From an uncultured Gammaproteobacteria bacterium (lineage in GTDB: Bacteria > Pseudomonadota > Gammaproteobacteria > Nitrosococcales > Methylophagaceae): a DNA stretch of 64,000 bases. The DNA is taken from contig CAJQOM010000006.1 of NCBI GenBank assembly GCA_905479985.1, positions 1-64,000 on the forward strand, in the 5' to 3' direction. This document shows positions 1,055 to 64,000 of this stretch, one piece after another; within the stretch, counting starts at the first letter, position 1; each line of letters begins with the position of its first letter. The notes below the pieces were generated by a model. That model was not told the DNA's origin, ran no database searches, and worked only from the letters and a program-made list of their open reading frames with translations. A program made the translations under genes and the position numbers.

Positions 1055-1104
1055 TACAATAGCAGCCTATTTAAAAATCACGTTTTTACAGGAATACACA
1101 GCGC

Positions 1105-2325: not shown

Positions 2326-2364
2326 CCTGGCCAGTTAATGTTTCCATATTTCAACTGAGAGAAT

Positions 2365-3402
2365 ATGGTGCAACAAGAAGAGAATCAAAAGTCAGCGGAG
2401 TACATGCGTTTAGCGGTGCCTTTAATGACGAAGTATGGCATAGCGATGACGCCACAGAACTATGCCGTTTGGTATGAATATGTCTCTGGCGCCAATATGC
2501 AATTGAGCGAAACGATTGATATCGATTTAGCGGAACTAGGTACCTTCACGAATCAACGTACGACAGAGCTTTATAATCGATTTTTAGGTCCTGAAAAAGA
2601 AGAACTTAATTTGCTCGATCAGCGTGCTGATTTACGCCTTTTATTACAAGAAATTCAAAAGTTTGCTAAAAAAGGGTCAAGTGCCGCTTCAGAATCGACA
2701 GAACAGTTAGCTGAAGCCTTAGCAAAATTGCATCCAGAAATGTCACGTGATCAGATTCATGATGTTATCCAAGATGTTATGGCGGAAACGAAACAAGTAA
2801 TGTCATCTAGCCAACAGTTAACGGATCGTTTAAATGCGGCGATGGCAGATATTGAAGAAATTAAAGCAGATATTAACGATACTAAAAAAGAAGCAAAGAC
2901 AGATCGTTTGACGGGGCTGGCAAATCGCAAAGCCTTTGATGAAAACATTCAGCTTACGGTTGCTGAAGCGGAACAATCAACAGAAAACTTATGCATTATT
3001 TTCTGTGATTTAGATTTATTTAGAGAATTAAATGCCAAGCATGGTCATTTGCTGGGAGATCAAGTATTAAAAATAGTGGCAAATATCATTAAAGCAACCG
3101 TTAAAGGGCGTGATTTTGTTGCGCGCTACGGTGGCGAAGAGTTCACCATTACGTTGAAGAATACGTCGATTGAAGATGCCAAAGTCATTGCTGGCGTCAT
3201 TGGTAAAGAAATAGCCGCAAAACGAATTCAACGTAAAGATAGCAAAGAGCCTTTAGGTCAGATCACAATGTCATTTGGTGTAGCAAGCTATTGTAAGTCA
3301 GAAGGGGTAGATAGTTTCCTTCAACGTGCAGATCGGGCCGTGTACCAGTCTAAACGTAATGGCCGAAATATGACTTCAGAAGCAAACCCACCGATTATTT
3401 AG
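2365..3402 (+). CDS. Cytoplasmic diguanylate cyclase (GGDEF)
   Basis: Predicted to make cyclic di-GMP from two GTP. There is no signal peptide or membrane segment. The N-terminal half (about residues 10-130) is a helical region with YGIAMTPQNYAVWYEY, a pattern seen at the N-terminus of several cytoplasmic cyclases. A coiled coil (about 150-175) and the GGDEF domain (about 180-340) follow. The active-site signature is GGEEF at 256-260, a permitted variant. The inhibitory I-site that normally reads RxxD is KGRD here, so product inhibition may be weak. It lies 39 bases after argG and runs convergent with the nitroreductase gene. Confidence 0.9.
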   Translation: MVQQEENQKSAEYMRLAVPLMTKYGIAMTPQNYAVWYEYVSGANMQLSETIDIDLAELGTFTNQRTTELYNRFLGPEKEELNLLDQRADLRLLLQEIQKFAKKGSSAASESTEQLAEALAKLHPEMSRDQIHDVIQDVMAETKQVMSSSQQLTDRLNAAMADIEEIKADINDTKKEAKTDRLTGLANRKAFDENIQLTVAEAEQSTENLCIIFCDLDLFRELNAKHGHLLGDQVLKIVANIIKATVKGRDFVARYGGEEFTITLKNTSIEDAKVIAGVIGKEIAAKRIQRKDSKEPLGQITMSFGVASYCKSEGVDSFLQRADRAVYQSKRNGRNMTSEANPPII

Positions 3403-4011: not shown

Positions 4012-4031
4012 AAACTCTCTTTGGATAAGGG

Positions 4032-4826
4032 CTAAAGTTGATCTACTTTAATGTAGATATGTTGTTGCTTTTTGACATGGCTATTATATTGCGTAGCGCC
4101 ATATTTTCGAATGTCTTTCTTATTATCAATTTGGCCTAATTCGAGCCAAGTGCCGGCGGGACCAGATAAACTGGTGACAATTTGACTACTGTTAAGAATG
4201 CCACTTTGGTTAGAAAACTCGCTAAAACGAGGATGAATATCGAGTGTGACATGATGATTGGGTAAAATACGGGCAACTGCTCTAAAACCACTGTTGATAT
4301 TCAGATATTGCGTGTCGGTTTGCACGGCCAAATCGCCATCATTACGCAGTACGAGGTATTGTTCAGACTGAGGGATATCTTGGCCCATATCAATAAAAAT
4401 AGGCTTATTGGCTAAGCCTTGCGCTTGGTAATATTGTTCATCATTTTTGCTATCTTGCGTCGACCAACGTTGAATCGAAACTGAGCCGGATAAATCACGG
4501 TCACGTACATCGACGTTGGCAGAAATCTGTTGCTGCTCAGTATCATGCAATACATCATAGGTTTTTAACACGGTAACGCGTAGCCGTTGTGGCGGGGTAT
4601 CGAGTTTTTTGATTAAGGTTTTTATTTGTCTTAAAGCGGCTGCATCAGCTTTCACAATAATAAAATCATTAAACGCCCGTGCCGTGGCTTTCTCAGGCAA
4701 AAATGCTTGGATCTCAGGTAACACTTCAACAGCCAAGCGATGATTAAGTTGAATCGTTTCAATTCGGACATCAGCATAGACAGCACTACTAAAAAGTGCG
4801 AAGAGAGCAAACAAGATATTTTTCAT
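4032..4826 (-). CDS. Periplasmic secretin-N-like protein
   Basis: 264 residues, beginning MKNILFALFALFSSAVYA, a clear signal peptide, so exported. A longer frame from 4871 would bury the signal, and the ATG at 4826 forms an ATGA overlap with the upstream stop. Residues about 20-90 (ETIQLNHRLAVEVLPEIQ, then IKKLDTPPQRLRVTV) resemble the small N-terminal subdomain of type II/IV secretins. The rest has short beta-rich segments recalling the secretin homology region (SLSGPAGTWLELG) but is far too short for a channel. It is therefore not a functional secretin gate. Its partner and role are unknown. Its position behind purB and the DUF7931-like gene suggests co-transcription. Confidence 0.6.
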   Translation of the reverse strand: MKNILFALFALFSSAVYADVRIETIQLNHRLAVEVLPEIQAFLPEKATARAFNDFIIVKADAAALRQIKTLIKKLDTPPQRLRVTVLKTYDVLHDTEQQQISANVDVRDRDLSGSVSIQRWSTQDSKNDEQYYQAQGLANKPIFIDMGQDIPQSEQYLVLRNDGDLAVQTDTQYLNINSGFRAVARILPNHHVTLDIHPRFSEFSNQSGILNSSQIVTSLSGPAGTWLELGQIDNKKDIRKYGATQYNSHVKKQQHIYIKVDQL

Positions 4827-5307
4827 AACGTTAACCGCCTTGTCATCAAATCGGGATTGCCATGATCCCAAACTGTATTAAATAACTGTTGTAATTGCCT
4901 ATTTTTAGAGACATCATCAAAACTGGCATGCCCGAGATAGCGACCTGCAGTCTGACCATACAAATAGGCATCATCATCGATTAATAAAAAGGTCTGTTTT
5001 ATGGCTTTATATTGTTCACTCACCGTTCTGATTTCGATTGAACTAGTCAGCTTTTGTGCTAATGCGATCACGCGATGACCTTGCGAGATAGCCTGTTGAC
5101 TATCATGCACAAGAAAGCGGGCTTGGGCATGGGGTGTACGCCGTGAAAATGCACTGAGGCTAGTGACTACTTCGGCATGATCGAGGAGGACATTATCCAA
5201 CGTCATCCCTAAAAAACAGATACTTCTTTTTGCCTGCTGAATAAGTGATATCGCCAATTCAGCAGCACGCTCCCGACCATCAAAATGAATGGTGGTGTCA
5301 GCGGACA

Positions 5308-5308
<1 letters not shown>
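4823..5308 (-). CDS. DUF7931-like / PLD-like small protein
   Basis: 161-residue cytoplasmic protein. It matches the small domain that often follows a GNAT acetyltransferase beside purB in gammaproteobacteria, now classed around DUF7931 and reminiscent of half a phospholipase-D fold. Visible blocks are AKRSICFLGMTLDNVLLD, ARFLVHD, FLLIDDDAYLYG and the C-terminal TVWDHG. No HKD catalytic motif is present, so nuclease or lipase activity is not supported. Its ATG overlaps the purB stop by one base and its stop overlaps the next start (ATGA), so translation is probably coupled. Confidence 0.55.
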
Positions 5309-6693
<1,385 letters not shown>

Positions 6694-6813
6694 TCAGCTA
6701 AAAACAAGCGACAAATTATATCAGATCCGCGTTTTTGCCACGTTGGATTAAGTGAGATTATGATATTTAAGGTAAAATAGTCTTTTGCTACCCCAATATT
6801 CGGAGACAATTGC

Positions 6814-9348
6814 GTGCTGAAAGCCTATCAAGACCACGTTGAACAACGCGCCCAGGAAGGGTTACCACCGTTACCACTAGATGCAGAACAAGTAACCGCC
6901 TTAATTGCACTGCTCAAACAAGCGAAAAATAAAGACAGTGAACAATGTCTTGAGTTATTGATTCATCGCGTGCCACCTGGTGTTGATCAAGCAGCTTACG
7001 TTAAAGCGGGCTTTTTAACGGATGTCGCTAAAGGTAATGTGAGCTGTGATTTAATTGATGCCGTCAAAGCAACACAATTACTCGGCACAATGATGGGGGG
7101 TTACAACATTGATGCCTTAATTGCATTATTGGACATGCCCGAAACAGCCGATGCTGCCGAAAAAGCGTTGTCTAAGACCTTGCTTATCTATGATGCCTAT
7201 CATGATGTGATTGAAAAAGCCCAAACCAATGATCATGCGAAAAGAGTCGTAGAAGCTTGGGCCAATGCTGATTGGTTTGAAGCACGTCAGCCATTGGCAG
7301 ACAGCATCACCGTCACTGTATTCAAAGTCCCCGGCGAAACCAATACCGATGATTTGTCACCCGCAACAGACGCTTGGAGCCGACCTGATATTCCGCTTCA
7401 CGCCAAAGCGATGCTGGTCAGTAAAATGCCGGATGGTCTTGAGCTCATTGAAACGCTAAAACAAAAAGGACATCCACTCGCCTATGTTGGCGATGTTGTA
7501 GGAACGGGTTCATCTCGTAAATCTGCGATTAACTCAGTGCTTTGGCATATGGGGGATGATATTCCTTATGTCCCGAATAAACGCCAAGGTGGTGTGATTC
7601 TCGGCGGTAACATTGCGCCGATCTTTTTCAACACCGCAGAAGATTCAGGTGCCTTACCAATAGAGTGCGATGTTCAATTGCTTGAAATGGGCGATGTCAT
7701 CACGATTCATCCATTTGAAGGCAAAATCACCAATGAAGCGGGTGAGGTGTTATCAACATTTAAACTCCGCCCAACCACGATCGCCGATGAAGTCAGAGCC
7801 GGGGGGCGCATCCCGTTGATTATTGGTCGCGGCTTAACGGATCGCGCGCGTGAAACATTGAATTTACCCGCATCAGAGGTTTTCGTTCGGCCTGTGGCGC
7901 CAGATGATACTGGAAAAGGTTTCACGCTCGCACAGAAAATGGTCGGTAAAGCGTGTGGTGTTGAGGGTGTTCGCCCTGGCACATATTGTGAGCCTAAGGT
8001 CACAACTGTCGGTTCACAAGACACCACGGGGGCGATGACACGAGATGAGTTGAAAGAATTAGCGTGTCTAGGATTCTCAGCTGATTTAGTGATGCAATCT
8101 TTCTGTCACACAGCCGCTTATCCAAAGCCCGTTGATATCAAGTTACAGCATGAGCTACCTGACTTTATCAGTACCCGTGGCGGCGTATCTTTACGACCGG
8201 GTGATGGCGTGATTCATTCATGGTTAAACCGGATGATTCTGCCTGATACAGTCGGTACTGGTGGTGATTCACATACCCGCTTTCCAATGGGGATTAGTTT
8301 CCCAGCGGGTTCGGGTTTAGTTGCTTTCGCTTCGGCGTTAGGTGTGATGCCAATCGATATGCCAGAGTCTGTATTAGTGCGATTTAAAGGCGAGATGCAG
8401 CCTGGGATTACCTTACGTGATCTGGTTAATGCCATTCCTTATGCCGCAATTCAGAAAGGCTTATTGACGGTTGAGAAGAAGGGCAAGAAAAATATTTTCA
8501 ATGGCCGGGTATTAGAAATAGAAGGCTTACCAGATTTGAAAGTCGAACAAGCGTTTGAATTATCAGATGCCTCAGCAGAACGTTCTGCTAATGGTTGCAC
8601 AGTCCATTTGAATAAAGAACCCGTCATTGAATTCTTAAATTCAAATGTCGCTTTATTAGAATGGATGATTGCCGAAGGCTATGAAGATGCACGCAGTCTT
8701 CAACGTCGTATCGATGGTATGAAAGCGTGGTTAGAGAACCCAGAATTAATGGAACGTGATGCTGATGCAGAATATGCTGAAGTGATCGAAATTGATTTAG
8801 CAACGATTACAGAACCGCTATTGGCTTGCCCGAATGATCCAGATGACATCAAACCGCTATCAGAAGTCGCTGGCGCAGAGATCGATGAAGTCTTTATCGG
8901 TTCATGCATGACCAATATTGGTCATTACCGTGCTGCCGGTAAAGTGTTAGAAGGCTTGGGTAATTTACCGACAAAATTATGGATCGCACCGCCAACGCGA
9001 ATGGATCAACGCCAGTTGACGGAAGAGGGAATATACAGCACCTTTGGCCGTGTTGGTGCACGGACTGAAACACCGGGTTGTTCTTTATGCATGGGTAATC
9101 AGGCGCGGGTAGCAGATGGCGCGACCGTGGTGTCGACTTCAACACGTAACTTCCCAAACCGCTTGGGTAATGGGGCAGATGTCTACCTTTCTTCGGCAGA
9201 GTTAGCGGCTGTCGTAGCAAGTATCGGTCGTCTACCGACACCGGCTGAATATCTAGAAAAGGTCGCGGGTATTGAACCAATGTCTGAAGAGATTTACCGT
9301 TATCTTAATTTCCATGAAATTGCGGAATATAGCGCTGTTTCAGAGTAA
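6814..9348 (+). CDS. acnB: Aconitate hydratase B
   Basis: Bifunctional aconitase and 2-methylisocitrate dehydratase of the citric acid cycle, [4Fe-4S] enzyme, 844 residues (E. coli AcnB 865). Order: N-terminal HEAT-like domain (1-160), swivel domain with [19 protein letters not shown], then the catalytic domains. Cluster ligands are visible in SFCHTAAY and in [27 protein letters not shown] is also conserved. The start is GTG behind a CGGAGA ribosome site; no better ATG lies nearby. It is monocistronic, ending in a strong hairpin terminator. Confidence 0.97.
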
Positions 9349-9371
9349 AAGACGTAGGTCGGAAAGTAATT

Positions 9372-9412
9372 AAAAAAAGGCCGCTTCTGTTATACAAAAG
9401 CGGCCTTTTTTT
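9372..9412. terminator. Bidirectional rho-independent terminator (acnB / hflD)
   Basis: AAGGCCGCTT and AAGCGGCCTT form a 10-bp stem, with an A-run on the left and a T-run on the right. It can stop acnB from the left and the hflD operon from the right. Confidence 0.92.
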
Positions 9413-9434
9413 ATTGAGTTAGATGAGTGATAAC

Positions 9435-10070
9435 TCAAAGTGATGATTGAAGATCATCTGTAATGGCGGATATTTTCTTTGACTGATAAAGGAACTGCCA
9501 GTAGCGTCCGCCTTTTTGCTGCCAAATAATCGCAGAACGAATGCCGGCTAATAATAAAGCACGAATCAAATTAGCGTTGCTACTAATTTCCAAATAACGT
9601 TCCTCACCATACACTTGGATAAAAGGGGTGAGGTTACTGATAGTACGTTTATAAATATCGGCTAAACGGGCGATGACTTGCGGGTGTGCAATATCATCAA
9701 AGTAGTCGATATGTTGAGGCAGTTGATCAATTTCAAGTGTGAGCGAGTTCATTACTGGCCCAGCCTTGGCTAATTTACGCTCTAATCTCAATAAATTAAC
9801 GGCAGTTTGAATTTGAGTAATTTGATGTTTGGTTTTGCGTTCGTTGAGCTGAATACTGAGTTGTTCAAAACCCAGTGTTAAGTTTTCCAGACCACCGTAA
9901 ACGGCTTCAGTAGAATCCGATTCAGTCACTAATATACTATTCAATAACGGCAAAACAGCAGTTGAATCGACACTGCCTGTATTAGCAATATTATGGACTA
10001 AATGGACTGTTTGCATCACCGCGGCAAGGGCAATTGTCCGTTCTCGTTCTTGCTGCTTATAATGAATCAT
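9435..10070 (-). CDS. hflD: HflD, lysogenization-regulator homologue
   Basis: 211-residue, mainly helical protein matching the HflD family. In E. coli HflD binds phage lambda CII, and the gene lies directly after mnmA. Its native cellular role is unclear. Visible family features are the N-terminal [19 protein letters not shown] and the central [14 protein letters not shown]. The start overlaps the mnmA stop by four bases, so it is translationally coupled and is the last gene of the rluE-nudJ-mnmA-hflD operon. The shared terminator lies 20 bases beyond the stop. Confidence 0.9.
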
Positions 10071-11170
10071 GGATGTATGCCCGGCGCGTCAGTTCGGACA
10101 ATAATACCACCGCCAAGACAATTATCATTTTGATAAAACACCACAGACTGGCCTGGCGTCACAGCACGTTGCTCGTCTTCGAAAGTGACATGGAGTTCGC
10201 CCTGCTCGTCTTGTGTAATGACACAAGCTTGATCACTCTGGCGGTAACGTGTTTTAGCGGTTGCATGGCATGGGAAAGCCGGTGGCTCGCCAGCAACCCA
10301 AGACAATTGTTCTGCAACAAGCGATTGGCTATGTAACCAAGGGTGGTCACCTTGAACAACATAAAGTACTTTGTTTTCCATATCTTTACCCGCAACAAAC
10401 CAGGGTTCGCCCGTACTGTCTTTACGACCACCGATGCCTAAGCCTTGTCGTTGCCCTAGTGTGTAATACATTAAGCCATTATGTTGACCGATAGTTTCAC
10501 CCTCAGGTGTGCGCATTTCGCCGGGTTGAGCAGGAATGTAGCGGCTTAAAAACTCACGAAAATGGCGTTCGCCAATAAAACAAATGCCAGTACTGTCTTT
10601 TTTATCATGGGTGATAAACCCCGCTTGTTCAGCAATGCGGCGTACTTCAGGTTTAGGCAGTTCACCTAAAGGAAACAAAGTCCGTGATAGCTGCGATTGG
10701 CCAAGGGTATATAAGAAGTAACTTTGATCTTTATTGTGATCTAAGCCTTTTAATAAGCGATAAGTGTCGCCTTGCTTCTCGACCCGAGCGTAATGGCCGG
10801 TTGCAATAAGGTAACCACCCAATTTCATAGCATGATCGAGAAAGGCTTTAAATTTGATTTCACGATTACATAAAATATCTGGGTTAGGTGTGCGACCCGC
10901 ACGGTATTCATCTAAAAAATGCTTGAAAACATGGTCCCAGTATTCCATGGCAAAATTAGCTTCATTAAAGGGGATACCGACCGTATTTGCAACGGACTGA
11001 GCATCTTTGCGATCATCTTCAATCGTACATTCGCTTTCATCGGCGAAGTCGACCCAGTTTTTCATGAATAAGCCTTCAACATCATGATCTTGTTGATGAA
11101 GCAATAAAGCGGCAACCGAAGAATCAACACCACCGGATAGGCCTACAATGACTTTGTTATTTTCAGACAT
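10067..11170 (-). CDS. mnmA: tRNA-specific 2-thiouridylase
   Basis: Thiolates U34 of tRNA-Lys, -Glu and -Gln in the cytoplasm, using sulphur relayed by the Tus proteins. The N-terminal GLSGGVDSS is the PP-loop ATP site. The two catalytic cysteines lie in ILCNREIKF and [11 protein letters not shown]. The frame is open to 11230, but the ATG at 11170 gives 367 residues (E. coli 368) and starts two bases after the nudJ stop, so it was chosen. A TusA-like protein is encoded far away at 51.3-51.5 kb. Confidence 0.96.
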
Positions 11171-53957: not shown

Positions 53958-54671
53958 ATGGTAAAAGAAACAAACTCGCAAAGAACAACATCAGAAATCA
54001 GCGGCTCGTTGGTAGATCGTATCGATGGATGGATAAGTTTAGTATTAAAAATAATGTTGATTATCGGTGCTGTGCTTGAGGCATTGCAGGGAAATTGGCT
54101 CAATTCTATTATCACCATAGGTATCGTCATATTGGCCTTTACCCCTCTCATGATGGGGTATCAATTCAACGTTCGTATCCCATCTGAGTTTGAGTTACTG
54201 GCAGTTTTATTTATCTACGCTTCACTGGTCTTGGGCGATATCTATGGCTTTTATACTAAATATTGGTGGTGGGATATTTTGTTACATGCGAGTTCAGGTC
54301 TGATCTTAGGTATTTTAGGTTTTTTACTCGTCCACGTACTCAATGAGCATGAGAATCTCAAAATGCATATGAAACCTTCGTTCGTCAGCTTGTTTGCCTT
54401 TATGTTTGCAGTGGGTATGGGTACGTTGTGGGAAGTTGTTGAATTTGCAATGGATCAATTTTTTGGCATGAATACACAAGGTGGGAGTTTGGTCGATACA
54501 ATGGGGGACTTAGTGGTTGACTGTATAGGCGCATTGATTATATCTGTCTATGGTTATCGTTACCTTCTTAGTCCACATACCGACTCTTTTCTCAAGCGTT
54601 GGATACAACACTTTATTCTCCTTAATCGACATTTTTTTTCCCGTAGAAAACATAAAAAGACCAAATATTAG
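53958..54671 (+). CDS. YjdF/DUF2238-like membrane protein
   Basis: 237 residues with about six helices. FELLAVLFIYASLVLGDIYGFY, YWWWDILLHASSGLILG and GTLWEVVEFAMDQFFG match the DUF2238 family, with buried His and Asp/Glu that could form a polar site. Function unknown. The start is an ATG in AT-rich DNA, divergent from the preceding hypothetical gene across 136 bases. Confidence 0.75.
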   Translation: MVKETNSQRTTSEISGSLVDRIDGWISLVLKIMLIIGAVLEALQGNWLNSIITIGIVILAFTPLMMGYQFNVRIPSEFELLAVLFIYASLVLGDIYGFYTKYWWWDILLHASSGLILGILGFLLVHVLNEHENLKMHMKPSFVSLFAFMFAVGMGTLWEVVEFAMDQFFGMNTQGGSLVDTMGDLVVDCIGALIISVYGYRYLLSPHTDSFLKRWIQHFILLNRHFFSRRKHKKTKY

Positions 54672-54727
54672 TTTTGTTGATACGGCGTTAGAGCAATTAT
54701 GAGGATGGATATTTCGTTTACAATTGT

Positions 54728-55075
54728 TTATTTTTTTGTTCTAGCATGAAGTGCTTTTGAGTAAGATCGGTTAGCCCATTCATTCATCGCATCATGCTCC
54801 TCTAGTATTTCTTCCGGTGCCTGAAAATAGGGCAAACTGACAGCCTTATTTTTCTTTTGATAAGTAAAAGTTTCTAAGCCTTTATTTTTGAAGAGGTGTT
54901 CAGTGTTTTTATTGGTCTTCAAGTAGAGCGTGTTATCGGTAATGAGGCCAAACATTAACCCGTCAAGAAAAAGGCCATAAACACCAAGCATGAATTTACG
55001 TTGAACAGGCCCAATAGGTTGCATCATCTCCCCAACATACAAAGCAAATTCCTTTTCTGTTTGATTGCTTGTCAT
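54728..55075 (-). CDS. TfoX/Sxy N-terminal-domain protein
   Basis: 115 residues, only the N-terminal TfoX domain: VQRKFMLGVYGLFLDGLMFGLITDNTLYLK. Full TfoX also has a helical C-terminal domain, missing here, and drives competence genes with CRP. Single-domain versions are common and mostly uncharacterised. The adjacent truncated nuclease gene ends 15 bases upstream on the same strand. Confidence 0.85.
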   Translation of the reverse strand: MTSNQTEKEFALYVGEMMQPIGPVQRKFMLGVYGLFLDGLMFGLITDNTLYLKTNKNTEHLFKNKGLETFTYQKKNKAVSLPYFQAPEEILEEHDAMNEWANRSYSKALHARTKK

Positions 55076-55089
55076 GTCTACATTGCGTA

Positions 55090-55542
55090 TTACAACACTG
55101 TCTTTAAGAATCGCTTTCTACCGATGGTCTTGGTGATAATGTCTTTATTGATATCGAAACCACGAGCAGGGGAGTATTCACGTCCGTAAAAAATAATCTG
55201 CAAGTGCAGTTTATTCCAATATTTCTTAGCAAATAACCGTTTGGCATCCTTCTCTGTTTGTTCAACATTCTTGCCGTTAGTCAGCCCCCAACGCCACATC
55301 AAGCGGTGAATATGAGTGTCGACAGGGAAAGTAGGGATGCCAAAAGCCTGTGACATGACGACAGAGGCGGTTTTATGGCCGACGCCAGACAATGCTTCCA
55401 ACTCCTCAAAGGTCTTTGGCACAACACCTTGATGTTTATCGACTAGCAATTCAGCTGCAGTTTTCAGATTCTTGGCTTTCGTTGTTGATAAACCGATTTC
55501 CCGTATCAAGTGCTTGATTTCAGGCTGCTCTAGTTTAGCCAT
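55090..55542 (-). pseudogene. nth: Endonuclease III-like, 5'-truncated, no Fe-S cluster
   Basis: 150 residues aligning to endonuclease III from about residue 65 on. The helix-hairpin-helix LSGVGHKTASVV, with the catalytic Lys, and FPVDTHIHRL, with the catalytic Asp, are intact. The N-terminal helices are missing: in-frame sequence upstream (L-G-I-L-G-S-S-T-S-F-E before the first Met) runs into a TAG without resembling the family. The C-terminus GREYSPARGF lacks all four cluster cysteines, as in the cluster-free variant I recall from Bacteroidetes. Probably an acquired, decayed copy. Confidence 0.7.
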
Positions 55543-55723
55543 CTCAAACGATGTACTTGACCCAAGTATTCCTAGGCATAAATATTCATTCTTCCCAGTT
55601 AACTACGCTATCTTGTTATGTGAGGAACATAGAACGTTAACGAATAACGTGAACTTTCAAAACAACCTGCTTAATGCATTATTGATACGAGATTAATGAA
55701 GCTGATTGAAAGCAAAGCGACTT

Positions 55724-55855
55724 TTAACTTTTAGACTCTAATTTAGCCCTGTCGGCCTTTGAGACGTACTTTTCTTTCTTACTATTCTGTAGCCGCTTGT
55801 CAGGATTTTTAGATTTTTGTTTTATCCGTTCAATTAACTTCTTTTTACGGTTCAT
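55724..55855 (-). CDS. Small basic DUF2986-like protein
   Basis: 43 residues starting MNRKKKLIERIKQK and ending YVSKADRAKLESKS, the pattern of DUF2986. The frame is open to 55939, but family members start at MNRRKK, so the ATG at 55855 is used. Function unknown; its charge suggests RNA or ribosome contact. Confidence 0.65.
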   Translation of the reverse strand: MNRKKKLIERIKQKSKNPDKRLQNSKKEKYVSKADRAKLESKS

Positions 55856-56120
55856 AAGATCTTTTTTCGTTGAGTGGATACCTAGACTAAAGTTTATACC
55901 ATATAAGCTCAACGCGCTTTTTGTTTCTGGACTTTTCAAGAGCTTCGGCCGAGCGTTTAAATTCAGGTGGTCTTTTCGAGGTCAATGGCCGCTGTAGGCT
56001 GAGAAGTAAATAGAGAAAGTACAACAGGTATTAAGGTCTTTTCTCAGAGTGGTTTCGGTTAAGGGAACGGTGAGAGGAGAGTATAAATTCCCTACAGAAA
56101 AATGACACAATGGGTTTAGG

Positions 56121-57539
56121 CTAAAGTGTCTCTGCAGATGATATTGCTACGGGAAGTGTCAAGGCTATCGTATAACCCTGGCTAGGATCTGAAATAATAT
56201 TCAAGTCTGCAGAGAGTTGTTCAGCACGCCATTTCATATTATTTAGACCATGGCCATTTTTAGTCTTATCTTGCTCTGGTGTACGGCCATTATCTTTTAT
56301 TGTGATCGTGACTAATCCGTCTTCATATAGACCTTGAAGTATGATTTCAGAGGCATTCGAATGTTTCATGATATTGGTAAAAGCCTCCTGTAATATCCTG
56401 AGAATATGTAGGCTTTGCTGGGGATCAATGGTGACTTGCTCAGGCAGTGTTAAGACATTCCAATGTAATTCAATATCCATTTTCTCAAGCTTAGTACCGA
56501 TTAGGTATTTAAAATCTGCTAATAATGCATTCAAGGTATTGGCATGGACATTCAATGAATTAATAATCAACCTAAAGTCATCCAGACACGCTTTCAAGAT
56601 AGCGGCAATATTATTTTTTGTTTCATTATCGGGTTCAAGTTCGAGTAAGGCTAAAGTAGCCACCAATTGTCCACCGATGCCATCGTGCATATCACGCATA
56701 ATCCGGGTACGTTCGTCAGCAATGGCTTTTGATTTTCCAAGATTCACAGCTTCTTGTTTTGTGCGTTCTAACTCATCATTCTTATCTGCCAATGCTTGCA
56801 TAGTGGTTTGTATAGATTGCGTTGCCAAATCAATTTTCGACTGTAAATCTTTCTCATTGAGTGCCAAAGCATTAATCATGTCATTAAACGTTTTTTGAAG
56901 TTCAAGTAATTCCCCCGTGCCATTTTCTTCACAACGGGTGTTGTAATGCCCTTGCTGAACCTGATTAGCAGAATCGACCAAAGCATTGAGAGACAGACTG
57001 AGTTTTTTACTGAAAAGGTGGCTCAAAATGAGTCCGATTAACAGTGATAGAAGCGACACCAAGACAATGAGTACTAAACCGTCCTGTTGCTTTACCGTGA
57101 TGGCTTCTCTTGAAAGGTTTATGTGAATAGAACCCACCGGCTCAGGACTTTCGAGTGATGGGCTGGCGTCAAAATCGCTTAGTTCAATATTAGAGCTCGT
57201 CACTAAACGATAAAATGGTTCGTGTTCAGGGTGTTGGCCTATGGCACCTCTTTCGACTAAAGTTTGGTTGGTGATATCAGCAAAGCGTATGGACTCGACA
57301 CCTTTGATTTTAATCATTAAGTCAGCGAGCGACTCAAGCTTAGGGATGTTGCCGGTATAAAGATAAAAATCTGACATTAAGGCAGCTTGCTCAGTCACAA
57401 GTTGTCCTTGTTCTTTTAGCTGTTCTTCGAGACTGGCTTTAGATTGATAGATAGAAAATGCTGCAATGATGAGCACTAATAAAAGCAAGGGCAAGATAGT
57501 GAGCAACACTAACTGCATTTTTATTTTAGAACCAAGCAT
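56121..57539 (-). CDS. NarL-type sensor histidine kinase
   Basis: 472 residues. Two membrane helices (about 8-30 and 155-175) flank a periplasmic sensor. HAMP (about 175-230) and a coiled coil follow, then HisKA_3 with the phospho-acceptor H285 in MRDMHDGIGGQL. The ATPase domain has EAFTNIMKHSNAS (N box) and NGHGLNNMKWRAE (G box). The start overlaps the stop of the binding-protein gene by one base, so the two are coupled. The likely partner is the regulator at 58.6-59.2 kb. Signal unknown. Confidence 0.9.
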   Translation of the reverse strand: MLGSKIKMQLVLLTILPLLLLVLIIAAFSIYQSKASLEEQLKEQGQLVTEQAALMSDFYLYTGNIPKLESLADLMIKIKGVESIRFADITNQTLVERGAIGQHPEHEPFYRLVTSSNIELSDFDASPSLESPEPVGSIHINLSREAITVKQQDGLVLIVLVSLLSLLIGLILSHLFSKKLSLSLNALVDSANQVQQGHYNTRCEENGTGELLELQKTFNDMINALALNEKDLQSKIDLATQSIQTTMQALADKNDELERTKQEAVNLGKSKAIADERTRIMRDMHDGIGGQLVATLALLELEPDNETKNNIAAILKACLDDFRLIINSLNVHANTLNALLADFKYLIGTKLEKMDIELHWNVLTLPEQVTIDPQQSLHILRILQEAFTNIMKHSNASEIILQGLYEDGLVTITIKDNGRTPEQDKTKNGHGLNNMKWRAEQLSADLNIISDPSQGYTIALTLPVAISSAETL

Positions 57540-58432
57540 TAATTAACTTTCCCTTGAGCATTTAGGCTTTCTGCAGCAGATCGATAAACACGCGCGATGC
57601 TCGGGTTTATTTTTATCGTTGCGTCAGGATAGATAATGGCAAAACTATTTGGTGCTGTTTGGTTAAGCCAAGCATTGATCGATTGAGCTGTGCTAATAGC
57701 CACATCATCAAGTGATGAATAGACGGACGCTAAAGCGCCAGCTTTTAAAAACGATTCTGAGTAACCGACCACGGGGACTTTATAATTAAAGGCCTGTTGT
57801 AATAACCATTTGGCATTTTTGCCCGTCCAGATCTCATTGTCTTGGATTGCGATAAGCGCCGCCGCATCGAATAAGTCAGGCTCGAGTACTTTGGCAGCCA
57901 AAGTCCCCTTAGGGACGATAACGATCTTGAGTTGCCCATGAGTTAAAGGCGCAATGGATTCTAATTCAGATAACAGTGCTTGATTCTGTTCTGATACGGC
58001 AACCAAAAGTGCCTTTTTATACCCTGTTCCTGCAAGCGGATCACTATATGTTAGAAGGCGTTGTGCCGGTTGATTCAGGCTAATAACAGACATGTTGTCA
58101 TGCGGGCGATTAGCATCAATATAAGCGTTGGTCTGTTTATCCGTGAACCCGATTACAGTAGGGTTAGGGAGGCGGAGGTTGATCAAGTCCTTAGCGGCTT
58201 TATTTCCGATGGCAACTAATAAGTCCTCTGACGCAATATCTGCTTTTGAAAACTGGTGGGTTAACGTTGTTTTATAGTGTGTCGCTGTGTCAGGTTTTAT
58301 CAGCTGTGACTGAATGTCATATACAGCTTGCCCAACAACGCGAGACTCACTGGATAAGATAAAGTGGATAGTCTTAGCCTGCACCGTGCCAGATGAGGTC
58401 AAGAACAATAGCAGGAGTAGGAAGTAACGCAT
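57539..58432 (-). CDS. ABC-type periplasmic binding protein (PF04392-like)
   Basis: 297 residues with a signal peptide (cleavage near VQA) and the two-lobed periplasmic-binding fold: VAIGNKAAKDLI, PTVIGFT, PVVGYSESFLKAGALASVYS. This resembles the ABC_sub_bind family, but no permease or ATPase gene is near. With the kinase directly downstream, a sensory role (delivering ligand state to the kinase) is likelier than uptake. The partner is inferred from position only. Confidence 0.78.
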   Translation of the reverse strand: MRYFLLLLLFLTSSGTVQAKTIHFILSSESRVVGQAVYDIQSQLIKPDTATHYKTTLTHQFSKADIASEDLLVAIGNKAAKDLINLRLPNPTVIGFTDKQTNAYIDANRPHDNMSVISLNQPAQRLLTYSDPLAGTGYKKALLVAVSEQNQALLSELESIAPLTHGQLKIVIVPKGTLAAKVLEPDLFDAAALIAIQDNEIWTGKNAKWLLQQAFNYKVPVVGYSESFLKAGALASVYSSLDDVAISTAQSINAWLNQTAPNSFAIIYPDATIKINPSIARVYRSAAESLNAQGKVN

Positions 58433-58588
58433 TATCTTGTGAAGAGGCTACTTAGCTAGGAGGAGCGCAAGGGAGCAAAAAAGCGATCCATGCCAAAAGC
58501 TAAGGTTCATCAATTCACTCATAGCAAAGTGGCTGAGTGAGCCAGTGAAGTAATGAAGCTGAATATAATTCCCTTATCGCCATAACCA

Positions 58589-59245
58589 TTAAATAATCCC
58601 TTGTATTGCTGCTTCATTAACAGCCTGCATCCTATTATTGACTGCGAGTTTCTTGTAAATATTAGACACGTATTCTTTAATCGTGTGGAAAGACAAATCC
58701 AACATCTTAGCGATTTCTTTTGTACTGTATCCTTTGCTTACCAAAATAAGCACTTCATGTTCACGTTTACTTAAAATACCGGCTTTAGGCACGTTTGTGT
58801 CTGCCTTTGGCTTGGTAAATGAGTAATTCAATTCGGTTAATAAATGCCTTGCAATACTTGGGCTCATAGGCGAGCCGCCATTGACCATTTGAGTGATAGC
58901 ATCATTTATTTCAATGAAATCATCGTCTTTAAGTAAGTAGCCAGTTGCGCCAGCTTTAAGTGCTTCAATAACATGCACACCATCACCAAAAATAGAAATG
59001 ACAATAGCGAGCTGATGACTGTCATTCGGCAAGTCCAGCATTTTAATAAGGTCAAGGCCATTGCCATCCGGTAGATCGAGGTCGGTGAGTAAAATATCTG
59101 GCTGGGCAGTTTGGATGACATCGACAGCGTGTTGATAGCTACCAACAGAGGCAATAATGCTAAACCGGTTTTCTTGCGTTATAGCGCGTTCGATACGCGC
59201 CCGAGTGACATCGTTATCCTCTACAATTAACAGTGTTGGTTTCAT
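58589..59245 (-). CDS. NarL/FixJ-family response regulator
   Basis: 218 residues: receiver domain (1-120) with acidic pocket E9/D10 and phospho-acceptor D55 in LLTDLDLPDG, then a LuxR-type helix-turn-helix (about 152-215; LSKREHEVLILVSKGYSTKEI). A DNA-binding activator in this family normally binds inverted repeats. It is separated by 156 bases from the binding-protein gene and by 114 from the unknown gene upstream, so it may have its own promoter. Confidence 0.93.
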   Translation of the reverse strand: MKPTLLIVEDNDVTRARIERAITQENRFSIIASVGSYQHAVDVIQTAQPDILLTDLDLPDGNGLDLIKMLDLPNDSHQLAIVISIFGDGVHVIEALKAGATGYLLKDDDFIEINDAITQMVNGGSPMSPSIARHLLTELNYSFTKPKADTNVPKAGILSKREHEVLILVSKGYSTKEIAKMLDLSFHTIKEYVSNIYKKLAVNNRMQAVNEAAIQGII

Positions 59246-59359
59246 GTCCAGTCTCTCGTAATTAGCCTATTTATAATCCACCTGAATTATAGCTTAGGGT
59301 TAAAGCATCTCACAGTGTAACAAGCTTGTTACGAGCATATTTCACGAGTTGACGATGGT

Positions 59360-59797
59360 TTAGAATCTAACCAAATTAGGGTGGGGGTTATTAGCTTGCG
59401 ACGATAAGGAGCTGACTAAGTTGAGTCGGGGTTGAGAGAGTATTTCATCAACAGCAATGAGCCAGCCAACATGAGACCTGAGTAAAGCAAGCAATAATAC
59501 ACGGGTAGCATGCTCATCGAGGTTTTCACCATTTTCACCAATAATAACGCGATTAATTTCAGCGACGACAGGTGCTGAATGATCAACCTCAATGTGGTAA
59601 ACCGCCAAGTCTGTATTCATCTCTTCAACAGATTTTGTACGCCATAAGAAAGTGATTTCTACATCTCCAGAAACCAACGAAGCGCGACCATGGTCATCAA
59701 AGCCACCAAACCGACTGATACTGTTTTTGTCACGAAATTCAACGGATGTGGTTTCAAAAACGGATTGTTTAAGTGAGGAGTAGCTAATCTTATCCAT
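59360..59797 (-). CDS. Unknown 145-residue protein in the TonB/two-component cluster
   Basis: No family recognised. No signal peptide or membrane segment; moderately acidic. A beta-rich N-terminal half (ASLVSGDVEITFLW, LAVYHIEVDHS) is followed by a helical stretch (ATRVLLLALLRSHVGWLIAVDEIL) and a polar tail. The upstream region carries a TATAAAT -10 and a CCCCC-N5-GGGGG palindrome, so expression looks activator-controlled. Its place between receptor and regulator suggests it belongs to the same response. Confidence 0.6.
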   Translation of the reverse strand: MDKISYSSLKQSVFETTSVEFRDKNSISRFGGFDDHGRASLVSGDVEITFLWRTKSVEEMNTDLAVYHIEVDHSAPVVAEINRVIIGENGENLDEHATRVLLLALLRSHVGWLIAVDEILSQPRLNLVSSLSSQANNPHPNLVRF

Positions 59798-59820
59798 ATA
59801 TCTCTCAGTAAAATAGCATT

Positions 59821-59827
59821 ATTTATA
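59821..59827 (-). promoter_or_regulatory. Candidate -10 element for the unknown gene
   Basis: TATAAAT on the minus strand, 24 bases before the start. It overlaps a TATAC-TG-GTATA palindrome. No consensus -35 lies 17 bases upstream, suggesting activator dependence. Confidence 0.45.
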
Positions 59828-59864
59828 CTGGTATAGATTATGGTAGTGAGACCGGATTTATAAC

Positions 59865-59879
59865 CCCCCAAATAGGGGG
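59865..59879. promoter_or_regulatory. CCCCC-N5-GGGGG palindrome, candidate operator
   Basis: A perfect 5+5 inverted repeat around AAATA, centred about 75 bases before the unknown gene's start. In this AT-rich gap it stands out and is a candidate site for the cluster's NarL-type regulator. Confidence 0.5.
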
Positions 59880-59944
59880 AAGTGCAGATCAGCTTGATGG
59901 CCTATATAAGGATGTTCACTAAGCTAAAGGATTATCGTAACGTA

Positions 59945-62041
59945 CTAGAAGCGAGTAAATGACACGGTTGCATAGTAACGCGGATCAAACTGAAAATCGG
60001 GGTGGAACTCAACATAACGACTGTTGCCAAGGTTTTGTGCTGCCAGTGTCACTGTTATCCTGTTTTTATGGGATAGATTAAAGTGTTTAATGATAGATGC
60101 ATCAACCCGAGTATGGTGTGGTGCGGGTTTGCCTTCGCTAAACCATTCCATATTATCAATATGATAAACCCCGACATTAAACTGCCAGTCATTGATTTTT
60201 TTAGCTGCCAGAATGCCATAGCTGTTTCTAGGAATACCAGATTCAACTTGAGTGTACTCACGTGGTTCAGGCGAGCCAATAGTATTTATTCTGCTTAAAA
60301 AGGCACCGTCTCCATGGCCTAAGTTAAAGTGGAAGCGTAAAAAGCTATGCTGTTCAGGGCGGTAAGTCACTTCCCCCTCAAATCCATAAGTATCAAACCA
60401 ACCCGTATTCATTATCTGGAGTATTCGACTATCGAAATCAATACCATTGGCCACATTGACATTATCATTCCTAACGAACTCGATGATATTGTCATATTGT
60501 TCTTTGTAGAGTTTAAATTCCCAAGATAATGGGAACTGAGAAAGTGAACCGAGATAACCAATATCATAGCTAGTGATTGACTCAGATTTTAAGTTATCTG
60601 TTGTTTCTAATTCACGGTTAATCACAAAGCCATTGCTCAAAGCTAAATCGAAGCGAGCATGCTTTTCTAATAAAGAAGGCAACCGATAGGCGCGGGCGAC
60701 GGAAAAACGTAAAGATTGTGATGGGTGAACTTGCCAATTCAGGCTTAAACGTGGCGAGAGCCTGGTTTTATCAACTCGGCTTTTTTCAACCAAAGCACCA
60801 AGGTTGGCTGTGAGTTTTGGCAAAATCGGTATTTCGACATTACCGAATAAGCGTAGCTGGGTATCAGAAACAGCCTCATCATCAACATAAAATAAACCAC
60901 TGTCCATCGTGTCATAACGTGCACCCATACCGACGACATATTGGATATCATTACTCAGTAATTCGCTAAACTGCACTTCGATATCAGAGCGATTCGAGCG
61001 ATAAGTCCGTGCTCCTGCCTCAACAAACTGGTCAGGCGCACCTGAAACGCCTAATAAGAAAGGTCCTACAGGATTCCCATCTTCATCGAAGAGTGATGAC
61101 AGAGGAGAGGTCGTCTTAGTTAAATCATTTTCATTACGATAGTTATGGTAGGCGTTAAGCTCTAACGCCTGTGTGGGAGAGAGAATATGGCTCCATTGTA
61201 GTTGAGCAGAGATTGCTTTTGCTTTGGTATCTCGGTCCTCAAAAATTTCGTCGATTGGATTTTCACCAGAATAGCCATTGGTATAGGACAGTCGCGTCGA
61301 AACAGTATTGGCCTGATCAACAGCCATTTTTGCAGAGAAAGACAAGTCATGAACATTACGTGAGTCAACCACATTGTTAAACCCAAAATCATCGAAGACA
61401 TCATCAAAGCCATCATTATCACGGGTGTTAGCCGTAAAACGATAATCCACATTATCAAGGCTACCGCTATGCCTTAATGATAATGAACGTTCGCCTTTGT
61501 TGCCTGATCGGATGTGTCCATAGAAACTATCATCAAGGGCAATATCGCGTGTGATGATATTAATCACACCCGCAAAAGAATTTGAACTAAAGGCTGAAGG
61601 GGCAGGGCCACGTACCACCTCAATCTTCTCAATATCTTCAATCTGTACACCTAAACTATCCCAATCAATGGTAGACACCGCTGAAATATAGCTTGAACGG
61701 CCGTTGATTAAGACCTGCATGCGGTTGGTGAGCTCACTACCATAGCCATGCGAGACGACAGAGAACCGGTTACCACCGGTATGTCCCACATAAAAACCCG
61801 GTACCAAACGCATAATGTCAGCAATCTCGATAAACCCTGTTGCTTCGATCATCGCACGGTCGATTACCGTCACAGCAGAAGGGCTCTTAAGGACTGATTG
61901 GTTTAAACGACTCGCACTAACAACAGAAGGTAACTCAGAAAAAGAGTTAGCCTCATCATTAAAGTCTTCAGCGATTAACTGCTGAGAAAAGAGCAGTGTC
62001 AACATCGCAGAAGCGAAAAAGGGATTTAAAGCTTTAGCCAT
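59945..62041 (-). CDS. TonB-dependent outer-membrane receptor
   Basis: 698 residues. Signal peptide (about 1-24), plug domain (about 40-165; SPSAVTVIDRAMIEATGF, EKIEVVRGPAPSAFSSNSFAGVINIIT), then a 22-strand-type barrel ending in the required aromatic residue (YYATVSFTRF). Plug motifs are of the general siderophore/vitamin class, and a ligand cannot be assigned. No TonB, ExbB or ExbD gene is in the window. The downstream unknown gene, regulator, binding protein and kinase share the strand, so co-regulation by the ligand is plausible. Confidence 0.92.
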   Translation of the reverse strand: MAKALNPFFASAMLTLLFSQQLIAEDFNDEANSFSELPSVVSASRLNQSVLKSPSAVTVIDRAMIEATGFIEIADIMRLVPGFYVGHTGGNRFSVVSHGYGSELTNRMQVLINGRSSYISAVSTIDWDSLGVQIEDIEKIEVVRGPAPSAFSSNSFAGVINIITRDIALDDSFYGHIRSGNKGERSLSLRHSGSLDNVDYRFTANTRDNDGFDDVFDDFGFNNVVDSRNVHDLSFSAKMAVDQANTVSTRLSYTNGYSGENPIDEIFEDRDTKAKAISAQLQWSHILSPTQALELNAYHNYRNENDLTKTTSPLSSLFDEDGNPVGPFLLGVSGAPDQFVEAGARTYRSNRSDIEVQFSELLSNDIQYVVGMGARYDTMDSGLFYVDDEAVSDTQLRLFGNVEIPILPKLTANLGALVEKSRVDKTRLSPRLSLNWQVHPSQSLRFSVARAYRLPSLLEKHARFDLALSNGFVINRELETTDNLKSESITSYDIGYLGSLSQFPLSWEFKLYKEQYDNIIEFVRNDNVNVANGIDFDSRILQIMNTGWFDTYGFEGEVTYRPEQHSFLRFHFNLGHGDGAFLSRINTIGSPEPREYTQVESGIPRNSYGILAAKKINDWQFNVGVYHIDNMEWFSEGKPAPHHTRVDASIIKHFNLSHKNRITVTLAAQNLGNSRYVEFHPDFQFDPRYYATVSFTRF

Positions 62042-62169
62042 CTTATTATAAACAGTCGCTTTTATGCCGGGTCAGTGAATACAAAAAGCTGATTATACAG
62101 GACAATGAAAAAGCATATGAACGAACGCCAATCAGGGGTGTTAAACCAGAATAATTTACATTTAGGGCA

Positions 62170-62781
62170 TTAACAATCACCGGCTAGGCGAAAAGGGTTG
62201 AGCGGGGTGAGCCCCCACCAGCCTTGAGGGGTGTGAATATTACCTTGTCGTACCTCAAAATGTAGATGGACACCATTCGCACCGGCACCCGTTTGACCCA
62301 TGATGCCAAGGTATTGACCTTGCTTTATCTCCATACCTACCCGTAGATGAGGACTAGTCCTAGCAAGATGACCATAAGCGGTATAAACATTTGCTCCGTG
62401 ACTGATAATGATCCAATTACCAAAGTCTTTTTTGCGATAAGTAATGGTTTTAATAACGCCATCACCAGCAGCAATCACATTACCGGCTGGACGTTTATGA
62501 TAATCAATCCCTCGATGATTTCGTCCTAGTGTACCGAAACCAGAGGACAAACACGAATCCGGGGCAGGGTTAATTAATAATTCAATGTCATTTAAACACG
62601 CTAATGCAGACTGTCTTTGTACTTTTCCAGCAGATGTTTTGGGCGCATTGGACACTTTCATTGGGCATAAGGCCAAATCTAACGGTGTAGATGCACCAGT
62701 AGGGATTGAAGCTATTCTAGGCGTAGTACTACTACAAGCAGATAAGAATAAAACGACAATAATAACGAGCAACTGTTTCAT
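62170..62781 (-). CDS. M23-family peptidase lipoprotein
   Basis: 203 residues. Lipobox LSAC at the signal peptide end, so lipid-anchored. The LytM domain has HRGIDYHK (first His and Asp ligands) and GVHLHFEV (HxH), the complete zinc set of the M23 family. Likely a murein endopeptidase or an activator of cell-wall amidases. 129 bases separate it from the TonB receptor. Confidence 0.87.
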   Translation of the reverse strand: MKQLLVIIVVLFLSACSSTTPRIASIPTGASTPLDLALCPMKVSNAPKTSAGKVQRQSALACLNDIELLINPAPDSCLSSGFGTLGRNHRGIDYHKRPAGNVIAAGDGVIKTITYRKKDFGNWIIISHGANVYTAYGHLARTSPHLRVGMEIKQGQYLGIMGQTGAGANGVHLHFEVRQGNIHTPQGWWGLTPLNPFRLAGDC

Positions 62782-62812
62782 TATAATAGTGGGTACTTCC
62801 GGCTAATTGAGC

Positions 62813-63589
62813 TTATGAATCATAAGCTTTCATCGTACGACATTTTGGAAATGTCGAACATCCCCAAAACTGCTTACCTTTATGGTCGCCTTTTTTAGTT
62901 TCCCTTATGACCATTTCACTGCCACACTTCGGACAAATTTGTTTATTTTCTTTTTCGGCAATAATGTCTTTAACGTGGCTGACATGCTCGCGATGTGTTT
63001 TGAATGAGGCTTTTAAGCGACCATCTTGAATGGTACGGATAATAGTGTCTTTTTCTAATTTAGAAATCACCGGTTCAGTTTTGGATTTAATCAGTCGGAT
63101 ATATCCCATGCCATAAGTGACATTATCAGGCAGGGGAGTCTTAAACGTACTATCACCAATAAAAACAATAACGGAATGGATTTGTGACTCTTTAAGCTCT
63201 AACAAGGTTTCCAATGTCTTTGTGTGTTTATAGTTTTGATGTAAGGGGTTTTGAAACTTGTTTTTGTGTTTATAGATTTGCTGTGTCCACATTTTTTGCT
63301 TAGGACTACCAAATATCCAACCTTTCATGTTTTTGGTTTCAACAACAAAAACACCATAAATTGAAACGATAATGTGATCAATTTGTGTTGTGCCATTCTC
63401 AGTTGGCAAGGTGACATTCTTTATTAAATGATAGGTATCTTTATCTAGCTGCCATTGAGCAAGGGCATTAACAATAAACTCTCCCATTACCCCTTTAAAC
63501 CATGCCGTCTGAACGATGGTGGCAATGATAAAAAGGGGAATGAGATACCAAAGCGAGAAGAGTGCTTGGTAGATTGGTGAAAAGTCCAT
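62813..63589 (-). CDS. NERD-domain protein with C-terminal zinc finger
   Basis: 258 residues. N-terminal membrane helix (about 12-30), then a NERD domain (GVMGEFIVNAL, QIDHIIVSIYGVFVVETKN with the nuclease-like acidic and Lys residues). The end is a topoisomerase-type four-Cys zinc finger (CPKCGSEM, FWGCSTFPKC). NERD proteins are predicted nucleases of uncertain role, often near mobile DNA. A repeat-rich stretch follows upstream of its start. Confidence 0.85.
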   Translation of the reverse strand: MDFSPIYQALFSLWYLIPLFIIATIVQTAWFKGVMGEFIVNALAQWQLDKDTYHLIKNVTLPTENGTTQIDHIIVSIYGVFVVETKNMKGWIFGSPKQKMWTQQIYKHKNKFQNPLHQNYKHTKTLETLLELKESQIHSVIVFIGDSTFKTPLPDNVTYGMGYIRLIKSKTEPVISKLEKDTIIRTIQDGRLKASFKTHREHVSHVKDIIAEKENKQICPKCGSEMVIRETKKGDHKGKQFWGCSTFPKCRTMKAYDS

Positions 63590-63634
63590 TTTTCAGATCC
63601 TTAAGTTTTTATGTAGCGTTACATTTGTATTCGC

Positions 63635-63832
63635 TGCCGCGAGGGCGTTCATTTCTTTTGCGTGCCCAAAAGAAACGAACCAAAGAAAAAGGCACCCGAC
63701 ATTATCGCTGGTCACTAAAAACTCCATTTTATGCAGCGTGGATAAAAACTCGCTAAGCTCAAACACTTATCCACTTTTGCTGCAAAAAATAAACTTTTTA
63801 GTGGCGATAAAAACGGGGTGGCGGGCATCATA
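63635..63832. repeat. Nested-palindrome intergenic repeat
   Basis: About 200 bases with several inverted repeats. TTTCTTTTG/CAAAAGAAA are at 63652-63675. TATCGC(TGGT)CACTAAAAA and TTTTTAGTGGCGATA are at 63703-63721 and 63795-63809. Within them, TGCAGCGTGGATAA (63732-63745) pairs with TTATCCAC-tttt-GCTGCA (63767-63784). The block starting CTGCCGCGAGGGCGTTCATT recalls intergenic repeats I know from other gammaproteobacteria. Only one copy is visible here. Confidence 0.65.
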
Positions 63833-63850
63833 GCTTAGATTGGTTATATT

Positions 63851-64000
63851 TTAAAATAGCCTATCCAGCAGGGCACGAAAGATACTACGAGAAGCTTGTT
63901 CTAGTAGATGTCCATTAGCACTATTGACTTGGCTTTGACGTGGGAACAGGGCTACAAAGACTAAATAAGAGCCAAAGCCAAACATGAAGGCCATAATTAA
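63851..64000 (-). CDS. Partial membrane protein, C-terminal end
   Basis: The minus-strand frame is open from the window edge and encodes 49 residues before TAA. It begins with a hydrophobic segment (FMFGFGSYLVFVALF), followed by a polar tail ending FRALLDRLF. It is a membrane protein C-terminus of unknown family; the start lies beyond the window. Confidence 0.5.
   Translation of the reverse strand, partial: LIMAFMFGFGSYLVFVALFPRQSQVNSANGHLLEQASRSIFRALLDRLF

Follow-up and report, generated by a model that had tools for sequence, protein, structure and literature searches.

A TonB-dependent receptor, a TrpX-like binding protein and a BarA/GacS-type sensor encoded together in Gammaproteobacteria: a proposed ligand-sensing module

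Genes and sequence features of the locus

The window analysed here is a stretch of 64,000 nucleotides from a genome of the Methylophaga family (2.2 Mb, 99.85% complete). Between positions 56121 and 62041 its minus strand carries five ORFs in a row, placed as in the initial annotation, which had also reported the overlap of the binding protein and kinase genes that we located at exactly one base, position 57539. The genes and features are as follows.

59945..62041, minus strand: TonB-dependent receptor, 698 aa (Pfam Plug 7e-18, barrel 6e-29)
59864..59879, no strand assigned: CCCC-N8-GGGG palindrome, 66 bp before the 145-aa ORF; candidate operator
59360..59797, minus strand: 145-aa ORF between receptor and regulator; no Pfam or NCBIfam match
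58589..59245, minus strand: NarL/LuxR-type response regulator, 218 aa (Response_reg 1e-18, GerE 9e-18)
57539..58432, minus strand: periplasmic binding protein (SBP) of the ABC_sub_bind/TrpX family, 297 aa (PF04392 2.7e-7, over the cut-off)
56121..57539, minus strand: membrane histidine kinase, 472 aa, with BarA/GacS-type Cache sensor, HAMP and NarX-type HisKA_3/HATPase
57096..57428, minus strand: periplasmic sensor domain of the kinase, about residues 38-148
57348..57374, minus strand: sensor motif SDFYLYTGN, kinase residues 56-64

The Plug domain of the receptor spans residues 51 to 159, and Pfam detected nothing beyond plug and barrel, an N-terminal signalling domain included; the nearest NCBIfam model, that of the TOL_0244 family, scored under its cut-off. 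The SBP starts with a hydrophobic leader (MRYFLLLLLFLTSSGTVQA), and its predicted structure (pLDDT 87) was nearest to PDB entries 3lkv, 3lft and CD0873. Further down the fold matches came entries including LuxP-LuxQ, with TorT-TorS lower still, and the score against NF041285 was 28 bits, where the cut-off is 390. Entry 3lft holds bound L-Trp. From the TrpX-type fold, an amino acid or a small aromatic compound may be guessed as the ligand.

Although the SBP shares its family with that of the TrpXYZ importer, the window module has neither permease nor ATPase, and its binding protein is coupled to a kinase. PF02653, the LivH-type family that includes the permease of TrpX-type SBPs, had no match, linked or unlinked, in the whole window genome. 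Near 83 loci, a search for LivH-type permeases with short query fragments, of moderate sensitivity, also returned no match. The initial claim that no ABC permease or ExbBD gene lies nearby was thus confirmed; ExbD genes are found on two other contigs of the genome (C13 and C7), which makes energisation of the receptor plausible.

Pfam recognised HAMP and HATPase_c in the kinase, with HisKA_3 under the cut-off, and by NCBIfam its transmitter is NarX/NarQ-like. In alignments with relatives, H285/D286 and N389 of the kinase and the phospho-acceptor D55 and K106 of the regulator were invariant, and the catalytic residues of both proteins look intact. No RNA elements were detected in positions 54000-64000, and promoter-like sites were not commoner than in shuffled sequence.

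Conservation of the module in Methylophagaceae and beyond

The SBP was present in 9 of 57 genomes of the family. Six Methylophagaceae relatives had the order regulator-receptor-SBP-kinase on a single strand, with the receptor immediately upstream of the SBP at a gap of 0-4 bp and with overlapping SBP and kinase genes, and the Osedax symbiont Rs1 showed the same order. One carrier of this order is Methylophaga thiooxydans DMS010 (L028). Judged from this comparison, the order in the window (receptor, 145-aa ORF, regulator, SBP, kinase) is a rearrangement of the usual one. The window receptor lies 1.5 kb away from the SBP, and one further genome (G049, L017) had regulator, SBP and kinase with no receptor beside the SBP; both cases suggest that the receptor may be dispensable.

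The 145-aa ORF, which had been proposed as a module member, did not hold that place. It gave no match in PDB, and the sole homologue among the 57 family genomes was weak (34% over 83 aa, in G028), with neither receptor nor kinase beside it (L122). On these sequence comparisons we judged the ORF to be outside the conserved module, and it is probably a recent insertion. Four of the five genes originally grouped together (receptor, regulator, SBP and kinase) are therefore the conserved ones.

In Methylophaga, the module is placed between astE and speA. Eight genomes that do not carry the module have astE and speA adjacent, so the module was cleanly gained or lost at this site. A polyamine ligand was considered because the Methylophaga module sits beside speA, the carboxynorspermidine synthase gene and nspC. 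This candidate was rejected: the astE-speA adjacency is retained in the eight genomes without the module, no speA above the cut-off was detected in the window genome, and the neighbourhood is chromosomal context only.

The same comparison brought out a recurring palindrome. CCCC-N8-GGGG occurs once in the 64-kb window against 0.33 expected, and there it could be an operator or the terminator of the receptor gene. Four Methylophaga modules carry it 119-156 bp upstream of the regulator gene, and in three of them (L013, L014, L015) a further copy overlaps the kinase stop codon, so that both module ends are marked; no copy was found at the astE-speA junction of genomes without the module. By their position, these copies are candidate regulatory sites or insertion marks. 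Separately, a perfect 16-bp palindrome, GTAACAAGCTTGTTAC, lies upstream of the regulator gene at window positions 59317-59332 and is a possible operator.

To look beyond the family, a profile was built from the SBP alone, so that neighbouring genes imposed no condition on the matches. Evenly drawn across the class, 369 gammaproteobacterial genomes from 271 genera yielded matches in 69 genomes and 55 genera, and a phylum-wide draw yielded matches in 9 of 399 genomes, each gammaproteobacterial. Among the 74 distant loci, a membrane sensor gene started within 250 bp downstream of the SBP on the same strand in 67 of the 72 with enough sequence, and 33 of the sensor genes had a 4-bp overlap onto the SBP gene. 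A receptor gene ended within 250 bp upstream of the SBP in 49 of 66 loci; the adjacent upstream receptor was missing in the remaining 17. With the same partners recurring in dozens of families when the SBP alone is the query, chance falls far short of accounting for the arrangement, and the module is far more widespread than the window alone could reveal. The initial annotation had named recurrence of the gene order in unrelated genomes without a permease as its check, and these counts bear it out for receptor, SBP and kinase. The regulator fared less uniformly: it belongs to the module in Methylophagaceae, in Rs1 and on a Massilia plasmid, whereas most distant loci have a BarA-like hybrid as their kinase, usually with no adjacent regulator.

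The Massilia case is the conjugative plasmid of Massilia sp. WG5 (L173), which at positions 4015-10224 encodes a response regulator, a CPBP-family protease, a receptor, an SBP and a HisKA_3 kinase. A module with its own regulator on a conjugative plasmid can move between species. A Teredinibacter plasmid carries an SBP and a response-regulator-bearing sensor gene, with no receptor adjoining the SBP. The module was found in several genomic surroundings: the astE/speA site in Methylophaga, the Massilia conjugative plasmid and a cysM/rlmD/acpS/pdxJ locus. A literature search, with subscription papers outside its scope, found no unit of TonB-dependent receptor, PF04392 protein and kinase and no gacS with such partners, which is weak evidence of absence.

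Relation of the kinases to BarA/GacS

The distant SBP-linked kinases mostly had the Pfam architecture sCache_4-HAMP-HisKA-HATPase-REC-Hpt, and the hybrids among them matched the BarA model NF008318 over the full length with 530-730 bits (cut-off 890). At least one neighbour among cysM, rlmD, pdxJ, acpS, recO and era, names that we assign from the sequences, was present at 38 of the 74 distant loci. BarA/GacS-type genes without an SBP are flanked by cysM, rlmD, acpS and pdxJ too, and the common neighbours indicate one and the same locus. Looking from the kinase side, 37 of 66 full-length BarA/GacS-like kinases scoring at least 500 bits had an SBP within 700 bp, and inspection added two further cases among the 66, one missed through distance (G107) and one through a divergent SBP (G342); in G144, a divergent SBP lies beside a kinase that is not in the set of 66. 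A second BarA-like copy in G187 (L200, G187:C1:2329500-2341500) follows directly on a receptor gene. No SBP was recognised there, the reading frame of the kinase contains a stop, and the copy is possibly decaying.

The window kinase shares the input side of this group. Its sensor is flanked by two membrane helices and continues into HAMP, and in hhalign comparisons it matched SBP-linked BarA-type sensors with 99.8% probability (E 8e-28) and, more weakly, SBP-less ones (99.3%, E 2e-20), while a control of YfiR-linked CHASE8 sensors reached 2.5%. The Pfam sCache_4 score was 20.9 bits, under the cut-off. For the predicted model of the sensor (pLDDT 78), the best match was a LapD orthologue in its periplasmic output domain, and the structure matches of the two predicted models support, short of proving contact, a binding-protein-on-Cache arrangement. 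SBP-linked hybrid kinases share both architecture and the cysM/rlmD/acpS/pdxJ site with SBP-less BarA/GacS. The window kinase differs in its transmitter, which is of the NarX type, and in its NarL-type regulator; its HisKA_3/HATPase core has neither REC nor Hpt, and we did not file it as BarA/GacS because it is not built on the HisKA-HATPase-REC-Hpt hybrid core. By sequence comparison it joins a BarA/GacS-type sensor to a NarX-type core. An E. coli-like BarA (L193), in contrast, has no receptor or SBP alongside.

Three outputs were found by Pfam behind the same input block: hybrid kinases, HisKA_3 kinases with a separate regulator, and PAS-GGDEF-EAL proteins. Pairwise distances were compared over the 41 loci with HisKA kinases, and the correlations, uncorrected for a species tree, were 0.73 for SBP and receptor, 0.65 for sensor and receptor and 0.53 for SBP and sensor. 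The transmitter (the kinase core) correlated with the SBP at 0.37, with the receptor at 0.41 and with the sensor at 0.42, so that part of the co-variation is due to common descent. Partial correlations given the transmitter were 0.68, 0.58 and 0.45, respectively, which fits receptor, SBP and sensor evolving together.

The SBP-linked sensors also shared a motif where the first sensor helix ends, E[YF]xxxxGN or, in a broader form, [ED][YFW]...G[ND], of which SDFYLYTGN is the window version. The [ED][YFW] pair was present in 66 of 73 SBP-linked versus 4 of 20 SBP-less kinases (Fisher p 2e-9, uncorrected). At position 122, D was conserved with a frequency of 0.74 versus 0.15. A kinase-core tree shows 12 changes in SBP linkage; the motif tracks linkage in about 3 of 5 supported independent contrasts and almost never in reverse (about 3:0), a difference that is not significant. 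The motif may be a candidate docking site for the SBP or may belong to another Cache pocket.

Proposed relay and competing explanations

Taken together, we consider it fairly probable that the module is a ligand-sensing relay across the envelope, running from ligand entry at the receptor, through the SBP as reporter, to a response of the kinase/NarL pair. The TonB-dependent receptor would import a small molecule into the periplasm, where the SBP, having no permease to serve, would capture it; the SBP would then dock on the Cache sensor of the kinase encoded by the adjacent gene, altering the activity of that kinase and, in turn, how far the NarL-type regulator is phosphorylated. Elsewhere among bacteria, the output would pass through either a GGDEF-EAL protein or a hybrid kinase of the BarA/GacS type. 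We infer the contact between SBP and sensor, on which the SBP-sensor correlation of 0.53 bears indirectly, and the import of a ligand by the window receptor, and with them the direction of regulation and the genes that would be regulated.

Known systems resemble the module in part. As in LuxP-LuxQ and TorT-TorS, a periplasmic binding protein of matching fold is encoded with a membrane kinase, of which it would likewise be the sensor partner in the module, and has no permease to serve; the window SBP differs in being PF04392/TrpX-like, the module adds an outer-membrane receptor, and the sensor is of the BarA/GacS sort. FecA-FecR-FecI likewise ties a TonB-dependent receptor to a cytoplasmic response. 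However, the plug of the window receptor begins at residue 51 with no N-terminal signalling domain before it, and no sigma or anti-sigma gene is among the five genes, their place being taken by binding protein and kinase. If the relay is real, it would be an outer-membrane-to-cytoplasm signalling layout distinct from the FecA type.

A broader version, which we rate at somewhat less than even odds, is that in many Gammaproteobacteria a TonB-dependent receptor and a TrpX-like SBP, co-operonic with GacS/BarA, gather and report the signal of that kinase. The window's NarX-type version would then be an offshoot with the same sensing block on another core, and receptor, SBP and sensor would form a portable input block with at least three kinds of output. 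This connection, which was not part of the initial annotation, suggests a concrete route for a signal to reach GacS/BarA. A review states that the ligands of GacS "remain unknown" (PMC7695008), and two BarA/GacS papers describe direct ligand sensing only (PMC8639471, PMC5595915), one of them assigning GacS a Cache-type detector domain (PMC5595915). Term searches within the three sources turned up neither TonB nor any receptor or binding-protein gene accompanying that of the kinase (PMC7695008, PMC8639471, PMC5595915). Work on the GacS ligand looks for a molecule with direct binding to the kinase. If the signal instead reaches many GacS/BarA-type kinases via a receptor and a soluble SBP, the SBP, open to purification, screening and crystallisation, would be a convenient handle to find the bound molecule.

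Alternatively, the main role of the SBP could be structural: rather than reporting a ligand, it would regulate or inhibit the kinase, keeping it switched off, and would react to the state of the envelope or to occupancy of the receptor. YfiR proteins act by inhibition, and sets of a TonB-dependent receptor, a YfiR/HmsC-like protein and a kinase or GGDEF-EAL protein (NF053590, NF053592) resemble the module in combining a receptor, a small periplasmic protein and a membrane sensor in a tight operon. NCBIfam models exist for a YfiR-associated sensor kinase and for the TOL_0244 receptor family, and the periplasmic partner looks exchangeable with the YfiR class. The window genome itself has such a parallel set (L121, G000:C18:107000-121579, positions 4383-9456), consisting of a receptor split in two frames, a YfiR/HmsC-like protein (PF13689) and a CHASE8-HAMP-PAS-GGDEF-EAL protein; the receptor and YfiR-like genes overlap by 1 bp, and a 4-bp overlap follows the YfiR-like gene. 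In these sets, however, the periplasmic partner is PF13689 rather than a binding protein and the sensor (in L121) is CHASE8, to which the window-type SBP-linked sensors showed no detectable kinship. The window proteins stayed below the cut-offs of the NF053590/NF053592 models (receptor 172 of 645 bits, kinase 44 of 194 bits), and the predicted SBP retains the full two-lobe fold near ligand-bound TrpX structures. We therefore regard this explanation as unlikely.

Still less probable is that the SBP ferries the ligand of the receptor to an unlinked inner-membrane importer while the kinase regulates expression and senses a ligand of its own directly. ABC transport gave the SBP family its name, and acetate is bound directly by BarA with no SBP (PMC8639471). 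Against this, the PF02653 permease is missing from the window genome, the SBP is translationally coupled to a sensor gene, not a transporter gene, in dozens of families, and SBP and sensor co-vary. A neighbourhood with no joint function, in which receptor and SBP were inherited beside a conserved gacS locus or hitchhiked, is already disfavoured and very improbable, for although about half of the loci lie at one chromosomal site, the order is kept at unrelated sites and on a plasmid, the genes overlap, and outputs are exchanged while receptor, SBP and sensor stay together. Apart from the window SBP, the sole PF04392 match in the genome is a 783-aa protein that combines ABC_sub_bind with an outer membrane efflux (OEP/TolC) domain (L020, G000:C24, positions 934-3285).
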